A stretch of DNA of 64,000 bases from Bizionia sp. M204 (GTDB taxonomy: Bacteria > Bacteroidota > Bacteroidia > Flavobacteriales > Flavobacteriaceae). Shown here one piece after another: positions 22,944-30,087 of the stretch. The stretch is taken from NCBI RefSeq assembly GCF_023205095.1, contig NZ_CP046242.1, positions 2,531,001 to 2,595,000 of the forward strand, read 5' to 3'. The notes under the pieces were generated by a model. The model was not told the DNA's origin and did not search any database. It saw only the letters and a program-made list of their open reading frames with translations. The position numbers were made by a program, and so were the translations under genes. How positions within the stretch are numbered: position 1 is the first letter of the stretch; the number at the start of each line of letters is the position of its first letter.

Positions 22944-24431
22944 ATGAAACACCTTTTTAAATTCCCCCTAACTATCAAACTCTTATTTATTTGCGTTCTT
23001 GTTTTCTCAACGCTACAAGCATGTGATGATGAACCTGTAGAACCAATTGTTGTTGTAGATACCGATAACGACGGTATTCCCGACAATGAAGATAATTGTC
23101 CTGAATTATCAAATCCAAATCAAGAAGACGCCAATAACAATGGAATTGGTGATGCCTGTGAAGATATTATCATCATAGACACAGATAACGATGGTATTCC
23201 AGACAGTGAGGATAACTGTCCAACTATAGCCAATCCAAATCAGGAGGATGATGACAATGATGGTATTGGAAACGCCTGTCAAGACACCCCTGCTACTACG
23301 CCATTATTTCCTTGTGAAAATGGTATGGCTGGACCTTACCCATGTAATGGCTATGACTTAATGAGTCATATTCCCGTTAACATTATCGGTGAACCTAATG
23401 CCGAGGGTAACGATTCTTGGGGCTGGACAGATAGCACAACAGGTAAGGAATATGCACTTGTTGGCACCACACAAGGAACAGCATTTGTGGATGTTACAGA
23501 CCCGATAAACCCTATATTTTTAGGCCGTTTAGCTTCTGCTAATCCTGGTGACAGAGGCAATATTTGGCGCGATGTTAAAGTGTATAATGATTACGCTTTT
23601 ATTGTTAGTGAAGCTAGTGGTTATGGTATGCAAGTTTTTGATTTAGGTCGATTGCGTAATGTGCCAAATCCGCCAGAAACGTTTACAGCCGATACCCATT
23701 ATACAGGTTTTGGAAGCGCTCATAATATTGTTATTAATGAAGATTCTGGTTATGCCTACATTGTAGGAACTAGCCGAAGTGGAACCTATGCGGGAGGCCC
23801 TTTATTCATTAATATTCAGAATCCGTTAAGCCCTGTTGAAGAAGGTGGCTTTTTTGGATATTCTCATGATGCACAAGTTCTAAACTACAATGGTCCAGAT
23901 GCCGATTATAACGGTCAAGAAATTTTAATTGGAAGCAATGAAACTGAAGTTGTAATAGTAAATGTAACAGACAAAGCAAATCCTCAAATTATTTCTAGTA
24001 TTGACTATACCAATATAGGCTATACTCATCAAGGTTGGTTTACGGATGATTTACAATATTTCATTTTAGGAGATGAAACTGACGAACAAAGTTTTGGTGG
24101 TAATACGCGAACCATTGTCTTTGATTTTACAGATTTAGACAACCCGTTGTTTCACATGGATTATTATGGACCAACAGCTGCAATTGACCATAATGGCTAT
24201 GTAAAGGGCGATACATTTTATATTGCTAATTACACAGCAGGCGTTCGATTTGTAGATATTTCCGGAATTGGTAATAGCACCATGACCGAAGTTGGCTTCT
24301 TTGATTCTTATCCAGCGAATAATAGCACTAGTTTCCATGGTGCCTGGAACGTATACCCTTATTTTGCTAGTGGCAATATTATTATTAGCGATATTGAAGG
24401 TGGCTTATTTATAGTAAGAAAGCAAAATTAA
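22944..24431 (+). CDS. Lipoprotein with thrombospondin type 3 repeats and LVIVD/choice-of-anchor B repeats
   Basis: A 495-residue outer-envelope lipoprotein (lipobox LQAC, cysteine near residue 27). Two thrombospondin type 3 calcium-binding repeats follow, each beginning DTDNDGIPD and containing EDNCP and GIG(D/N)AC, at about residues 38-115. The rest (about 125-490) is a beta-propeller-like choice-of-anchor B domain with LVIVD-type repeats: TAFVDVTDPINPIFLG, QVFDLGRLRN, FINIQNPLSPVEEG, VVIVNVTDKANPQIIS and VRFVDISG. Conserved histidines occur in GSAHNIVIN, YSHDAQVLNY, YTHQGWFT and IDHNGYV, which could bind metal. It is the first gene of a four-gene operon ending in MbnP and MbnH-like proteins; the next gene begins 7 bases on. 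A surface or outer-membrane partner role is inferred. Confidence 0.88.
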   Translation: MKHLFKFPLTIKLLFICVLVFSTLQACDDEPVEPIVVVDTDNDGIPDNEDNCPELSNPNQEDANNNGIGDACEDIIIIDTDNDGIPDSEDNCPTIANPNQEDDDNDGIGNACQDTPATTPLFPCENGMAGPYPCNGYDLMSHIPVNIIGEPNAEGNDSWGWTDSTTGKEYALVGTTQGTAFVDVTDPINPIFLGRLASANPGDRGNIWRDVKVYNDYAFIVSEASGYGMQVFDLGRLRNVPNPPETFTADTHYTGFGSAHNIVINEDSGYAYIVGTSRSGTYAGGPLFINIQNPLSPVEEGGFFGYSHDAQVLNYNGPDADYNGQEILIGSNETEVVIVNVTDKANPQIISSIDYTNIGYTHQGWFTDDLQYFILGDETDEQSFGGNTRTIVFDFTDLDNPLFHMDYYGPTAAIDHNGYVKGDTFYIANYTAGVRFVDISGIGNSTMTEVGFFDSYPANNSTSFHGAWNVYPYFASGNIIISDIEGGLFIVRKQN

Positions 24432-24438
24432 ATTCACC

Positions 24439-25764
24439 TTGAAACTAAAAATATTAAGTTTATTAACGACACTATTCATACTGGGTTGCTCATCAGATAA
24501 TGATACAACCCCAGCTTCTGCTGTGGACTCCACCACAACCGCAACAACATTAGGTGGATCTAAAAATGAAAGTGGTCAATCCATAATCAAAACTATGGAT
24601 GGCGGCTATGCTATTTTAGGATTTACTCAAAGTTCGGATGGCGATATTGCCGATAAGACTAATGAAAGTTATGATTATTGGGTGCTAAAATTTAATGCGA
24701 ATCATGACATGCAATGGTCCAAAACTTATGGTGGATCGGGTGATGATCGCGGTGAAGATATAGTTCAGACATCAGATGGCGGTTTTGCTATTTTAGGTTA
24801 TAGTGATAGTAATGAAGGCGATGTAACCAGCAATGCAGGTGCACAAGATTACTGGTTGGCAAAACTAGATTCTAACGGAAATTTATTATGGCAACAATCC
24901 TATGGCTATTTAGGAGCTGACCGTGGCAAATCCATTTTAATAACACAAGATGGCGGGTTTTTTATAACAGGTATTTTAGATGTTACAGCATCAGGTGGTG
25001 CTGGAAATACTAAAAACGCTAGTTCCAAACACGCAGGTGGTGATTATTGGGCTTTAAAACTGAACAGTGAAGGCACCATTGAATGGAGCAAATACTATGG
25101 CGGAAGCTTTACCGATTCCCCGTTTGATGCCATTCAAACCACTGAAGGTGATTTCATAATTGTTGGATCCTCTGATAGTGATGATGTTGACATTGCTAAT
25201 AATATAGGTGATTATGATTTTTGGGTGGTGAAAATATCTAATTCAGGAACCATAATCTGGGAAGAAAATTTTGGTGGCACTCAAATAGATGAAGCGCGCA
25301 GTATAGTGGATTCTGGAGATGGTAATTTTCTCATTATTGGAGACACACGCAGTAGTGATATTCATATTTCAAATAATTTAGGTGCTGCAGATTTATGGCT
25401 TATAAAAATATCACCTTCCGGAAATATTATTTGGGAAAAAACGTTTGGTGGAAGTGATTTTGATGCTGGATTATCCATTGCTAAAGCAACTAATTCAAAC
25501 TTTATAATATCAGGGAGTTCTAGAAGTGCCGACGGGAATTTGTCCAGCAATAAGGGACAAAATGATGCTTGGTTATTAAAAATTGATGCCAATGGCTCCA
25601 TTATCAAGCAAAATTCCATTGGTGGTTCTGCTATTGATTTTTGTCTAAGCGCAATAGAGTTAGAAGATAACACCATAATTGGTGTTGGGAAATCTAGTAG
25701 TTCAGATGGTGATATATTAGAAAATAAAGGTTTTACAGACTTATTAATAATAAGAACAAAATGA
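24439..25764 (+). CDS. Repeat lipoprotein, beta-propeller type (GGSxxD repeats)
   Basis: A 441-residue lipoprotein (lipobox LFILGC, cysteine near residue 17). It contains about seven repeats of roughly 50-55 residues, each with a core like IVQTSDGGFAILGYSDSNEGDV, DYWLAKLDSNGNLLWQQSYG and GGSGDDRG, shown here by the parts TSDGGFAILGYSDS, WLAKLDSNGN and YGGSGDDRG. This pattern predicts a propeller of blades with a Trp/Lys-rich edge strand. The start is TTG at 24439: it is the only start that includes the signal peptide, and it lies 7 bases after the previous stop. Its stop overlaps the MbnP start by four bases (ATGA), so translation is coupled. Function unknown; likely surface-exposed partner of the MbnP/MbnH pair. 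Confidence 0.85.
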   Translation: MKLKILSLLTTLFILGCSSDNDTTPASAVDSTTTATTLGGSKNESGQSIIKTMDGGYAILGFTQSSDGDIADKTNESYDYWVLKFNANHDMQWSKTYGGSGDDRGEDIVQTSDGGFAILGYSDSNEGDVTSNAGAQDYWLAKLDSNGNLLWQQSYGYLGADRGKSILITQDGGFFITGILDVTASGGAGNTKNASSKHAGGDYWALKLNSEGTIEWSKYYGGSFTDSPFDAIQTTEGDFIIVGSSDSDDVDIANNIGDYDFWVVKISNSGTIIWEENFGGTQIDEARSIVDSGDGNFLIIGDTRSSDIHISNNLGAADLWLIKISPSGNIIWEKTFGGSDFDAGLSIAKATNSNFIISGSSRSADGNLSSNKGQNDAWLLKIDANGSIIKQNSIGGSAIDFCLSAIELEDNTIIGVGKSSSSDGDILENKGFTDLLIIRTK

Positions 25765-26531
25765 AAAAAGCAATTTCAATATTAATGTTAACTTTTGTTA
25801 TTTTTTCCTGTGGTGAAGATAATGACGATCTCCTAACGCCTGTCCAAACCAAGGCTGCAATTACATTTAATTTTACCCATAATTGGGATGCTACGGCTAT
25901 AAATAGTAGCAATATTCAAACTGAAACCGTGACAAACGCGCATGGTGAAATTATGAATATGACAAGTTTGCGCTATCTGGTTTCACGATTTGAACTAACA
26001 AATCAAAACGGCGATATTTATAGTTTAAATGGGTATAAATTTACTGATTTATCCAATGAAACAACCTATAATTTTTCACCTGACAACAGCATAATTCCAA
26101 TTGGAACTTACACCTTAAAATTTATTTGGGGTTTTAATGAAACAGATAATAGAGATGGTGCTTATCCCGACTTAAATAGTGCATCTTGGAATTGGCCAGA
26201 AATGCTAGGTGGCGGTTATCACTTTATGCAGCTAGATGGCATGTATAATGTAAACACAACCCCAATGCCATATAATTTTCACAATGGCACAGCACGTGTA
26301 AGCGCAGATGTTTTTGAGCAAAATTTTGCCGAAATAATGCTACCAACACCAATCACAATTACAAATAATGCTACCATTGAGATAAAAATGAATATTGCTG
26401 AATTTTTCAAAAACCCAAATACTTGGGATTTAAATGTTCTTGACACCTCATTAATGCCAAATTACGATGCGCAAAAAATGATGCAAGCCAATGTTAATAC
26501 CGTGTTTTCTATTGGAAACATCACGCAGTAA
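25761..26531 (+). CDS. mbnP: MbnP family protein (putative copper-binding lipoprotein)
   Basis: A 256-residue lipoprotein (lipobox FVIFSC, C17). The mature domain matches the MbnP/MopE/CorA group: an all-beta fold starting ITFNFTHNWD, then a LRYLVSRFEL strand, FIWGFNET and WNWPEMLGGGYHFMQLDG. In characterised relatives one tryptophan is oxidised to kynurenine and, with histidines, binds copper. Candidate residues here are H40, W42, H61, W123, W143, W145, H154 and H174; which of them serve is not known. The gene overlaps the preceding one by four bases and is followed after 10 bases by a di-heme MbnH-like enzyme, the partner that performs the oxidation in the studied systems. No methanobactin biosynthesis genes are present, so copper binding is inference. 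Confidence 0.85.
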   Translation: MKKAISILMLTFVIFSCGEDNDDLLTPVQTKAAITFNFTHNWDATAINSSNIQTETVTNAHGEIMNMTSLRYLVSRFELTNQNGDIYSLNGYKFTDLSNETTYNFSPDNSIIPIGTYTLKFIWGFNETDNRDGAYPDLNSASWNWPEMLGGGYHFMQLDGMYNVNTTPMPYNFHNGTARVSADVFEQNFAEIMLPTPITITNNATIEIKMNIAEFFKNPNTWDLNVLDTSLMPNYDAQKMMQANVNTVFSIGNITQ

Positions 26532-26541
26532 AATATTGTAA

Positions 26542-27612
26542 ATGAAAACAGCATTAACATACACACTTTTAATTTTCTGTATTTTTATTACGTCTTGTAG
26601 TAAAGATGATTCAAACGAATATGTTAATAAGCCAACGGCCCAACCTTTGGCTATTCCACCATTATTTGCGCAATTTATAATCAACCCTGTAATTCCCATT
26701 GATAATCCGCAAACTGTGGAGGGTGTTGCTCTTGGTAAAAAATTATTTTTTGACCCCTTACTGTCCGCTAATAACACACAAGCATGTGCAACGTGCCATA
26801 GCCCACAAAATGCCTTTTCAGATAATTCTCAATTTAGCACAGGTATTGACGGTATTCTTGGGAACAGAAATTCCATGCCACTCTTTAATTTAGCTTGGAA
26901 TTATGACGAACAATTCTTTTGGGATGGTCGCGTTTTCAGTTTGGAACACCAAGCGTTAGTTCCTGTAGAGGATCCCGTAGAAATGCATAATACATGGGAA
27001 ACCGTTGTTACAAGATTACAACAACATCCTGAATATCCAAATCTATTTAATAATGCATTCGGTGAAGGCGTGATTACCAAAGAAAAAGCTACCAAGGCTT
27101 TAGCGCAATTTGAGCGCACACTCATTTCGGCCAACTCAAAATTTGACAAATATTTGCTAGGTGAGGCTACGTTAACACCTCAAGAAACCAACGGTTTAAA
27201 TGTTTTTATGGATGAAACCCGAGGCGATTGCTTTCACTGTCATGGCAATCCCAACAACCCGTTATGGACCGATAATATGTTTCATAATAACGGTTTGGAT
27301 GCCACAATTACCGATTTGGGACTTGGAGCCGTAACAGGAGATCCCGCTGACAATGGCAAATTCAAATCGCCTTCCTTACGTAATTTAGCATTTACCGGGC
27401 CATTTATGCACGATGGTCGTTTTGCAACCTTGGATGATGTTATTAATCATTATAGTGAAGGCTTACAAAATTCACCAACCATTGATCCGTTGATGAAAAA
27501 AGTAGCACAAGGTGGTGTGCAGCTTTCTGCTCAAGACAAAGCCGATTTAAAGGCTTTTTTACTGACTTTATCAGACCCTTCCTTTATTAATAATCCAGCA
27601 TTTCAAAATTAA
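26542..27612 (+). CDS. mbnH: Di-heme cytochrome c peroxidase, MbnH/MauG-like lipoprotein
   Basis: A 356-residue protein of the bacterial cytochrome c peroxidase/MauG superfamily. Two c-type heme sites are present: CATCH at residues 82-86 and CFHCH at 230-234. The MauG/CcpA motif FMHDGRFATLDDVINHYSEG is found near residue 295-315. A lipobox (IFITSC, C19) anchors it to the membrane in the periplasm. In the studied systems MbnH oxidises a tryptophan of MbnP to kynurenine. That this is its task here follows from the adjacent mbnP gene, 10 bases upstream; a plain hydrogen-peroxide reductase is the alternative. The symbol reflects family similarity only. It is the last gene of the operon; a weak hairpin (AACAGC/GCTGTT, 27611-27633) follows. 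Confidence 0.85.
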   Translation: MKTALTYTLLIFCIFITSCSKDDSNEYVNKPTAQPLAIPPLFAQFIINPVIPIDNPQTVEGVALGKKLFFDPLLSANNTQACATCHSPQNAFSDNSQFSTGIDGILGNRNSMPLFNLAWNYDEQFFWDGRVFSLEHQALVPVEDPVEMHNTWETVVTRLQQHPEYPNLFNNAFGEGVITKEKATKALAQFERTLISANSKFDKYLLGEATLTPQETNGLNVFMDETRGDCFHCHGNPNNPLWTDNMFHNNGLDATITDLGLGAVTGDPADNGKFKSPSLRNLAFTGPFMHDGRFATLDDVINHYSEGLQNSPTIDPLMKKVAQGGVQLSAQDKADLKAFLLTLSDPSFINNPAFQN

Positions 27613-27755: not shown

Positions 27756-27763
27756 TATATTTG
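27756..27763 (+). promoter_or_regulatory. suf operon -7 promoter element
   Basis: TATATTTG is a full match to TAnnTTTG and ends 31 bases before ATG 27795. Its place also shows that the upstream TTG at 27753, which extends the sufA frame, cannot be the start, because it lies before the promoter core. Confidence 0.6.
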
Positions 27764-27794
27764 CATACTATTTAGAGTAAATCTAATTAAGACT

Positions 27795-29655: not shown

Positions 29656-30087
29656 ATGAAAAAACTAGCCACACTTTTAATAATATCTATTGTTTTTATC
29701 AGTTGTAAAAATGATAGTAAAACCGCAGAAACCACTATAGAAACAGAAGCTATTGATATGGATAGCCCCAATCGTACCAAAAAACAAAGCGATGGACTAA
29801 CCTTATTAAAAGGTGAATTTGTTTACTATTCAGATGCAGCCGTATTACAAACGCATCGTGAAGTTTATGGCGTTATTATGGACGATAAAATGATGGAACT
29901 TAATAAAATGGCAGAAGCCTATAAAAAAGAACCAACAGATTACGCCACAGTTTCCATACGTGGAAAAATAGTACCAAAACCAGAAAACGAAGAAGGCTGG
30001 CCTTTTCGTGTAGAAATAAAAGAAATTTTAAGCGTTTCAGCTTCAAACCCTGAAACCAATAATGTAGTAAAATTGGAATCCAAATAA
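29656..30087 (+). CDS. Small lipoprotein between sufB and sufC, unknown function
   Basis: A 143-residue lipoprotein (signal MKKLATLLIISIVFISC, cysteine at 17). After a Thr/Glu-rich linker (about 20-50) a folded part of about 90 residues contains LLKGEFVYYSDAAVLQTHREVYGVIMDDKM and VSIRGKIVPKPENEEGWPFRVEIKEIL, quoted in part as GEFVYYSDAAVLQTHREVYG and IRGKIVPKPENEEGWPF. I do not recognise a named family; the beta-rich pattern suggests an OB-like or small barrel fold. It ends one base before sufC, so it is translated from the suf mRNA even though its product is in the periplasm or outer membrane. Its link to cluster assembly is unknown and may be accidental. Confidence 0.78.
   Translation: MKKLATLLIISIVFISCKNDSKTAETTIETEAIDMDSPNRTKKQSDGLTLLKGEFVYYSDAAVLQTHREVYGVIMDDKMMELNKMAEAYKKEPTDYATVSIRGKIVPKPENEEGWPFRVEIKEILSVSASNPETNNVVKLESK

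Follow-up and report, generated by a model that had tools for sequence, protein, structure and literature searches.

What is a protein pair of the MbnP/MbnH type, known from copper handling, doing behind two genes for propeller-like lipoproteins and in front of the Suf genes of a flavobacterium? The question is raised by a four-gene locus in a 64,000-nucleotide stretch of Bizionia sp. M204 (contig NZ_CP046242.1, positions 2,531,001-2,595,000; genome of 3.36 Mb), the whole of which is called the window below. An earlier note on this DNA had described the four genes as one tight unit, and four open reading frames (ORFs) of the + strand indeed fill positions 22944-27612 with gaps of 7, -4 and 10 bases (Table 1); the identities it gave the products are correct in outline for all four, as judged from profile matches, repeats and fold or structure matches. 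Across the genome, PF20243, TIGR04312 and CCP_MauG each have a single match, to genes 3, 1 and 4 respectively, and the sole MbnP match and the sole CCP_MauG match adjoin each other. A search of the whole genome with PF05114, the family of the methanobactin biosynthesis protein MbnB, found no match, in keeping with the claim that no methanobactin locus is present. Comparison of genomes shows that the propeller pair (genes 1 and 2) is the core of the locus and that MbnP and MbnH (genes 3 and 4) are an optional add-on; the four-gene lipoprotein set is fixed beside the Suf genes in many Flavobacteriaceae. Our preferred explanation, to which we give a little less than even confidence, is a conserved surface lipoprotein module whose core is a probably metal-binding propeller with a presumed scaffold propeller and to which MbnP and the di-heme enzyme would add a copper function.

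Gene order and probable surface anchoring in the Flavobacteriaceae

Homologues of the four genes were sought in 149 Flavobacteriaceae genomes (E 0.001): MbnP was found in 71, gene-1 homologues in 79 (76 above the cut-off), gene-2 relatives in 84 and matches to the MbnH profile in 106. Mapped onto contigs, they correspond to 79 MbnP, 111 gene-1, 71 gene-2 and 103 MbnH places, the MbnH and gene-2 places being the best of longer lists, picked by hand. The full order gene 1-gene 2-MbnP-MbnH occurs at 47 MbnP places in 47 of the 149 genomes and is broken by a contig end in one further genome (G124). MbnH is the next gene after MbnP at 77/79 places; 30 MbnP places have MbnH without propellers (one of them on the other contig of G124) and one has neither among the typed rows. 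A gene-1 homologue adjoins each of the 71 strongest gene-2 places. MbnP does not adjoin the pair in 23 of the 71 propeller-pair genomes, 22 of which have no MbnP at all and one of which (G075) carries it elsewhere, and MbnP/MbnH is therefore not required for the propeller pair generally.

A scan of named genomes with the gene-1 alignment found 562 relatives, the best 80 loci of which were kept (L151-L230), so that this sample leans towards close relatives; several of these loci end at contig ends. The full order is present in 68 of the 80, the pair without the full order in 7 and neither in 5, and the genera represented include Bizionia, Formosa, Algibacter, Lacinutrix, Winogradskyella, Tenacibaculum, Polaribacter, Aquimarina and Kordia. 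The two samples overlap (L151 and L131 are examples) and their counts are not to be summed. Conservation of the order in relatives, which the earlier note had put forward as the check on its proposal, is thus found in both samples and in many genera. One contig filed as a metagenome-assembled genome of Rhodobacteraceae (L158) bears a complete flavobacterial locus and is probably misbinned.

All four products had been credited with lipoboxes. The lipid-site Cys is conserved among the relatives of genes 2, 3 and 4 (61/61, 34/34 and 38/38 rows), for which this claim stands; the relatives of gene 1 vary at the N-terminal lipid site, and some end in a tail like those of the type IX secretion system (T9SS) instead. 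Acidic residues after the lipid Cys are the export signal of Bacteroidota surface lipoproteins. Where a lipobox is recognisable, at least two acidic residues lie at positions +2 to +7 in 35/45, 45/56, 48/49 and 47/55 products of genes 1 to 4 (out of 119, 76, 62 and 70 proteins), compared with 18/62 of the other lipobox proteins of these loci; the values are 7/39 for a Suf-operon lipoprotein and 4/8 for a lactamase-fold lipoprotein, both described below. This enrichment fits export of the four products as surface lipoproteins and agrees with the surface anchoring suggested earlier.

A divergent MbnP and its di-heme partner

Gene 3 belongs to the MbnP family, as had been proposed. It scores 85 bits against PF20243 (cut-off 27), which also matches all 65 aligned relatives, and MbnP 7l6g is the sole significant match of its predicted structure (predicted local distance difference test, pLDDT, 90.5) among solved folds (E 2.6e-7); going by the model, membership by fold stands. 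Against TIGR04052 (MbnP_like_WxW) it reaches 19 of 140 bits, below the cut-off, and a sequence search of solved structures with the window MbnP, as a single sequence or as a 65-row profile, found nothing.

The divergence was examined in 90 distinct window-type sequences, hereafter the subfamily, and in a canonical set of 58 rows from 55 distinct genes (three genes appear in duplicate; of 59 loci, 3 yielded no row, and a window-type one was excluded). In the 2021 work of Manesis, the first Trp of the WxW motif of MbnP is said to become kynurenine, in a site reportedly made of a His, a Met and that kynurenine. WxW is present in all 58 canonical rows. At residues 143 and 145 the subfamily has W-V in 45 sequences, F-V in 24 and W-W in 21, the window among the last. 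A di-heme gene adjoins all 24 Phe143 forms, the Winogradskyella aurantiaca form (L117/L190) being an example; 23 of these genes encode both CXXCH motifs and the remaining one a single CXXCH. Residue 143 needs four changes on the tree, of which at least two are forced by the starred branches. Because Phe143 occurs in 24/90 with the di-heme gene retained, forming kynurenine at WxW cannot be what the pair is generally for in the subfamily, and the usual chemistry that the earlier note had carried over is not supported in that form.

Further changes surround the motif. A four-residue insertion (P-E-M-L in the window) follows WxW; the Met two residues before it, at canonical position 152 (57/58 canonical rows), is Ala in 61/90 of the subfamily; and His154 and Trp222 are specific to the subfamily, His174 being common to both sets (Table 1). 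P146 and Q238 are also found in 90/90 sequences and W42 in 86/90; Met232, although invariant here, is not special to the subfamily. Taken together, the alignments indicate that the published copper site has probably been rebuilt in part. The four residues listed earlier as candidates for oxidation, W42, W123, W143 and W145, are real, but W222 had been overlooked and is the sole invariant one of the five.

Gene 4 is indeed the MbnH-type di-heme partner. It matches CCP_MauG with 205 bits, and its best solved relative is MbnH 6e1c (E 1.9e-51), followed by cytochrome c peroxidases; its score of 269 bits for the MbnH family TIGR04039 is below the cut-off of 363, which is reached in none of the 149 family genomes. 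The protein carries the marks of the MbnH family, namely two CXXCH motifs, Trp127, Tyr304 and an adjoining MbnP gene, and the residues were followed in 58 aligned MbnH proteins that also served for a tree. We take Tyr304 to sit at the place of the axial Tyr of MauG and MbnH, and Trp127 to be the residue expected in the MbnH family. A Met-His pair at residues 289-290 is missing in 4/58 rows, as is Tyr304 in 4/58.

The slot behind the propellers is occupied by two kinds of MbnP/MbnH. Four sampled full loci (L119-L122) carry a canonical MbnP, three by alignment and L120 because it reaches 156.6 bits against PF20243, and in eight named loci (six Aquimarina, one Kordia, one Mesonia) the MbnP in the slot is closer to the canonical references. 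In the MbnH tree, the 34 window-type proteins form one side of a branch with support 100, and those of L119-L122 fall on the canonical side as a group of their own (support 99); long branches meet there, which leaves the deep join uncertain. That one slot can hold either kind of pair speaks for a functional link to the propellers. Canonical pairs that stand alone were fetched for 20 of 30 places (L231-L250) and have other neighbours. All 20 lie beside a small conserved protein, which has a CNGKC motif in the two examples inspected; 16/20 have a Cys-rich protein, probably of the outer membrane, and 4/20 a TonB-dependent receptor together with a protein that narrowly misses the YtkA cut-off. The MbnH relatives of L247-L250 form a separate group in the tree.

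An ordinary copper pair, in which MbnH would turn W143 into kynurenine and MbnP would bind Cu(I) as in Methylosinus while the propellers are incidental neighbours, would account for the family matches of genes 3 and 4, for the MbnP fold match, and for the W143 of 66/90 sequences and the whole WxW of 21/90, window included. It does not account for Phe at 143 beside a di-heme gene in a lineage pattern that forces at least two changes, nor for the loss to Ala of the canonical Met before WxW, and the 20 standalone pairs have other neighbours; we consider it unlikely.

The pair of Methylosinus trichosporium (MbnP 7l6g and MbnH 6e1c; TIGR04052 and TIGR04039) shares with the window locus the MbnP fold, an MbnH-type next gene and a lipoprotein signal. 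The window locus differs by the degenerate WxW of its subfamily, the insertion and the invariant His154 and Trp222, and by two propeller genes in front, Suf behind and no MbnB-family match. In the CorA/CorB and MopE/SACCP systems of methanotrophs, a surface copper protein, whose site consists of two His, water and kynurenine, has a co-transcribed di-heme partner proposed to form the kynurenine; unlike the window locus, no propeller partners are mentioned in the excerpted text (PMC3912023). Kenney and co-workers stated in 2013 that conservation of the MbnP/MbnH pair extends far beyond methanobactin producers (PMC3621798), and MbnPH-like genes are reported to occur elsewhere in operons with copper genes (PMC9426467). 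No description of a propeller association of MbnP/MbnH was found in the open-licence text of PubMed Central (PMC).

The two propellers

Gene 1 is a clear member of the choice-of-anchor B family with its LVIVD repeats: TIGR04312 matches residues 123-493 with 532.8 bits (cut-off 100) over profile positions 1-364 of 364, the Pfam LVIVD profile remaining below its cut-off (14.6 of 20.2 bits). Some relatives in this family have T9SS-like tails, whereas gene 1 encodes a lipoprotein with thrombospondin type 3 (TSP3) stretches in a fixed operon. Gene 1 occurs in tandem at four loci (L127, L196, L200 and L202), with up to five copies ahead of gene 2, some of them with a T9SS-like C-terminal tail. No paper on choice-of-anchor B propellers was found in the open-licence PMC text.

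Conservation in gene 1 was read from 78 rows of family loci, tandem copies counted, and from 29 phylum-level rows, 7 of the same family (one being the window's own gene) and 22 of other families; L042 gave no row. Four histidines are invariant in both sets, and in the structure model (pLDDT 92.6; model numbering plus 114 gives the window residue number) each lies at the start of a strand (Table 1). In our reading, each of these strands opens one of four consecutive blades and lines the pore of the modelled propeller. Four invariant His suggest a metal site, and carotenoid oxygenases offer a precedent in the ring of histidines on their propeller axis; on the model, gene 1 encodes a seven-bladed propeller that more likely than not has a metal site. 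The closest solved fold is 5hrm, the propeller phosphotriesterase (haloalkylphosphorus hydrolase) of Sphingobium TCM1 (E 2.4e-11), other propellers following from 3.1e-9. The 5hrm enzyme reportedly holds two metal ions, a binuclear centre, in its propeller. Identity between the two is 12-13%, and no match of the four His to the 5hrm ligands was found; querying with the C-terminal 106 residues of gene 1 to obtain this mapping gave no hit. The DxWGWxD motif of gene 1 is equally invariant in loci without MbnH.

Gene 2 has seven repeats, marked by a conserved Gly at residues 39, 98, 156, 221, 279, 337 and 395, which agrees with the earlier count of about seven propeller-like repeats, and it matches the CylK propeller (7ron, 7fh8; E 2.7e-28), with residues 109-390 as the best stretch. 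The passing stretches of this match are confined to the repeats, and no counterpart of the CylK N-terminal domain was found in gene 2. In CylK, according to an excerpt of its description, this calcium-binding domain is fused to the propeller and supplies Arg105 (PMC8916777). Alkylation is therefore not expected of gene 2, which we take to be a scaffold for the gene-1 propeller.

Table 1. Positions in the window of the four genes, of residues and motifs discussed in the text, and of the element before sufA.
Feature	Position	Strand	Remarks
Gene 1	22944..24431	+	Lipoprotein; two thrombospondin type 3 stretches and a predicted seven-bladed choice_anch_B (TIGR04312) propeller
Gene 1, best TSP_3 stretch, residues 61-100	23124..23243	+	
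Gene 1, W159-G160-W161 (DxWGWxD motif)	23418..23426	+	Both Trp invariant in 78/78 and 29/29 rows
Gene 1, His260	23721..23723	+	78/78 and 29/29 rows; directly before model strand 147-151
Gene 1, His308	23865..23867	+	78/78 and 29/29 rows; directly before model strand 195-200
Gene 1, His362	24027..24029	+	78/78 and 29/29 rows; second residue of model strand 247-252
Gene 1, His416	24189..24191	+	78/78 and 29/29 rows; second residue of model strand 301-307
Gene 2	24439..25764	+	TTG start; lipoprotein; CylK/SBBP-type propeller, seven repeats
Gene 3	25761..26531	+	Divergent MbnP lipoprotein (PF20243)
Gene 3, W143-N-W145, aligned with canonical WxW	26187..26195	+	Residue 143: W 66, F 24 of 90; residue 145: V 69, W 21
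Gene 3, His154, subfamily-specific	26220..26222	+	90/90; commonest canonical residues K 26, I 17 of 58
Gene 3, His174, common to canonical MbnP	26280..26282	+	90/90; 58/58 canonical rows
Gene 3, Trp222, subfamily-invariant	26424..26426	+	90/90; commonest canonical residues I 31, V 12 of 58
Gene 3, Met232	26454..26456	+	90/90; Met in 29/58 canonical rows
Gene 4	26542..27612	+	MbnH/MauG-type di-heme lipoprotein; sole CCP_MauG match in the genome
Gene 4, heme motif CATCH (82-86)	26785..26799	+	C, C and H in 58/58 rows
Gene 4, Trp127 (FWDGR)	26920..26922	+	58/58 rows
Gene 4, heme motif CFHCH (230-234)	27229..27243	+	C, C and H in 58/58 rows
Gene 4, Tyr304	27451..27453	+	Y in 54/58 rows
TATATTTG	27756..27763	+	Conserved probable promoter element of the Suf operon; TAnnTTTG

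The Suf neighbourhood and what the locus may do

Neighbourhoods were fetched for 60 loci, 23 with the propeller pair only and 37 full. The usual setting has a thiL-like gene on the opposite strand on one side and sufA-sufB-sufC-sufD-sufS on the same strand on the other; SufA, SufB, SufD and the AIRS-type thiL-like protein were named by Pfam and the remaining Suf genes by eye. The thiL-like cluster lies near 21/23 pair-only and 37/37 full loci, and the SufB/D cluster near 20/23 and 37/37. Among the named full loci, sufA or sufB is reached within at most two further ORFs in 59/68.

The Suf operon probably has a promoter of its own. TAnnTTTG, which we take to be the -7 type promoter element of Bacteroidota, occurs in 55/56 gaps between gene 4 and sufA, where letter shuffles predict 9.1, and in 29/64 regions upstream of gene 1, where they predict 8.3. 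This conservation before sufA makes two units the likelier arrangement and disfavours co-transcription of the four genes with Suf, although some read-through may occur. The two-part form TTTG-N17-20-TAnnTTTG was found in 0/56 of these gaps and in 0/64 regions preceding gene 1; a hairpin followed up by a T run was present in 1/56 gaps. At positions 27756-27786, the gap before sufA, followed across L151-L230, shows a conserved promoter-like block TATATTTGCA and then CTATTTAGA with a TCTA half; in the window this is a TAGA-N5-TCTA inverted repeat that resembles an operator.

A small lipoprotein just below the NlpE_C cut-off is encoded between sufB and sufC (29656-30087), a slot that a lipoprotein with a metallo-beta-lactamase fold occupies in other loci. 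In the set used for a tree of Suf and ThiL proteins (58/61 loci, L095, L103 and L111 being without the needed genes), it is present in 33/38 full and 1/20 pair-only loci. A link between this lipoprotein and MbnP/MbnH was considered and rejected as indistinguishable from shared descent, because the pair-only loci cluster on the tree and give only four independent contrasts.

The same tree, on which the pair-only and full states need four changes, bears on the possibility that the locus reflects positional inertia, a thiL-Suf neighbourhood that is seldom broken and no shared function. So few changes, and a propeller pair that holds its place with or without MbnP/MbnH, are what inertia would predict; the gaps of few bases on one strand in most of the full loci fetched, and the two kinds of MbnP/MbnH in the same slot, are not, and we regard this explanation as quite improbable. 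Still more doubtful is that the di-heme enzyme acts on gene 1, with W159/W161 or the metal site of the propeller as its real substrate: the invariant DxWGWxD motif lies in a product of the same four-gene unit, yet among the 78 rows it is equally invariant in pair-only loci, and MbnH follows 77/79 MbnP places. A surface peroxide defence, with the di-heme protein as a peroxidase removing H2O2 and located beside Suf because it shields iron-sulfur metabolism, has the neighbourhood, the cytochrome c peroxidases next among the solved matches of gene 4, and one locus with gene 4 and no recognised MbnP (L224) in its favour, but is very improbable given that MbnP precedes gene 4 in most loci, that Suf probably has its own promoter, and that Tyr rather than Met stands at the axial place in 54/58 rows, which presumably speaks against a peroxidase role.

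The preferred explanation, a surface module of two propellers with a copper add-on, must itself face several observations that weigh against it. Besides the propeller pairs without MbnP counted above, 22 genomes of a 247-genome phylum sample outside the family have both a gene-1 homologue and MbnP (one MbnP below the cut-off), and no gene-1 and MbnP rows lie within 5 kb of each other among the matches listed, which include gene-1 rows for 18 of the 22 genomes, many of these having more. In L224, gene 4 stands before sufA with no MbnP recognised between it and gene 2, and across genes 1 and 2 a single residue, Ala317/Ser of gene 2, tracks the presence of MbnP. For the metal propeller, 5hrm outscores other propellers by roughly two orders of magnitude with an identity of 13%, its sequence match to gene 1 is weak (E 0.057, no single stretch passing), and the His cluster is read from strand positions in the model.

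In the module as we picture it, the di-heme enzyme would be charged by peroxide at its hemes and would then oxidise a tryptophan of the neighbouring MbnP, completing a Cu(I) site that may have been remodelled around His174 with His154 and Met232. The oxidised residue would be W143 in members that have it or, as the more general candidate, the invariant W222. Once finished, MbnP might serve the propeller pair at the outer surface by handling copper or copper-linked oxidation. The more specific version, in which the MbnH-type enzyme is no longer WxW-dependent and modifies another Trp, W222 being the best candidate, and in which the remodelled copper site serves the four-His metal propeller, is conceivable but rather unlikely as a whole. 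The interpretation of the earlier note, a surface-anchored and possibly copper-related complex, keeps its conserved order, MbnP fold, MbnH match and surface signal, and loses the usual kynurenine chemistry.

Four points are new: the locus is built of a core and an add-on, it lies beside Suf, about a quarter of the subfamily has lost the known target residue while keeping the enzyme, and the gene-1 propeller has four invariant His. To our knowledge, MauG/MbnH enzymes have very few recognised targets for protein tryptophan oxidation. Natural variants that retain the enzyme but lack the known target residue show where to seek a new one, and with that residue so often missing the enzyme's real target becomes a testable question; for choice-of-anchor B propellers, the four invariant histidines give a first functional lead.

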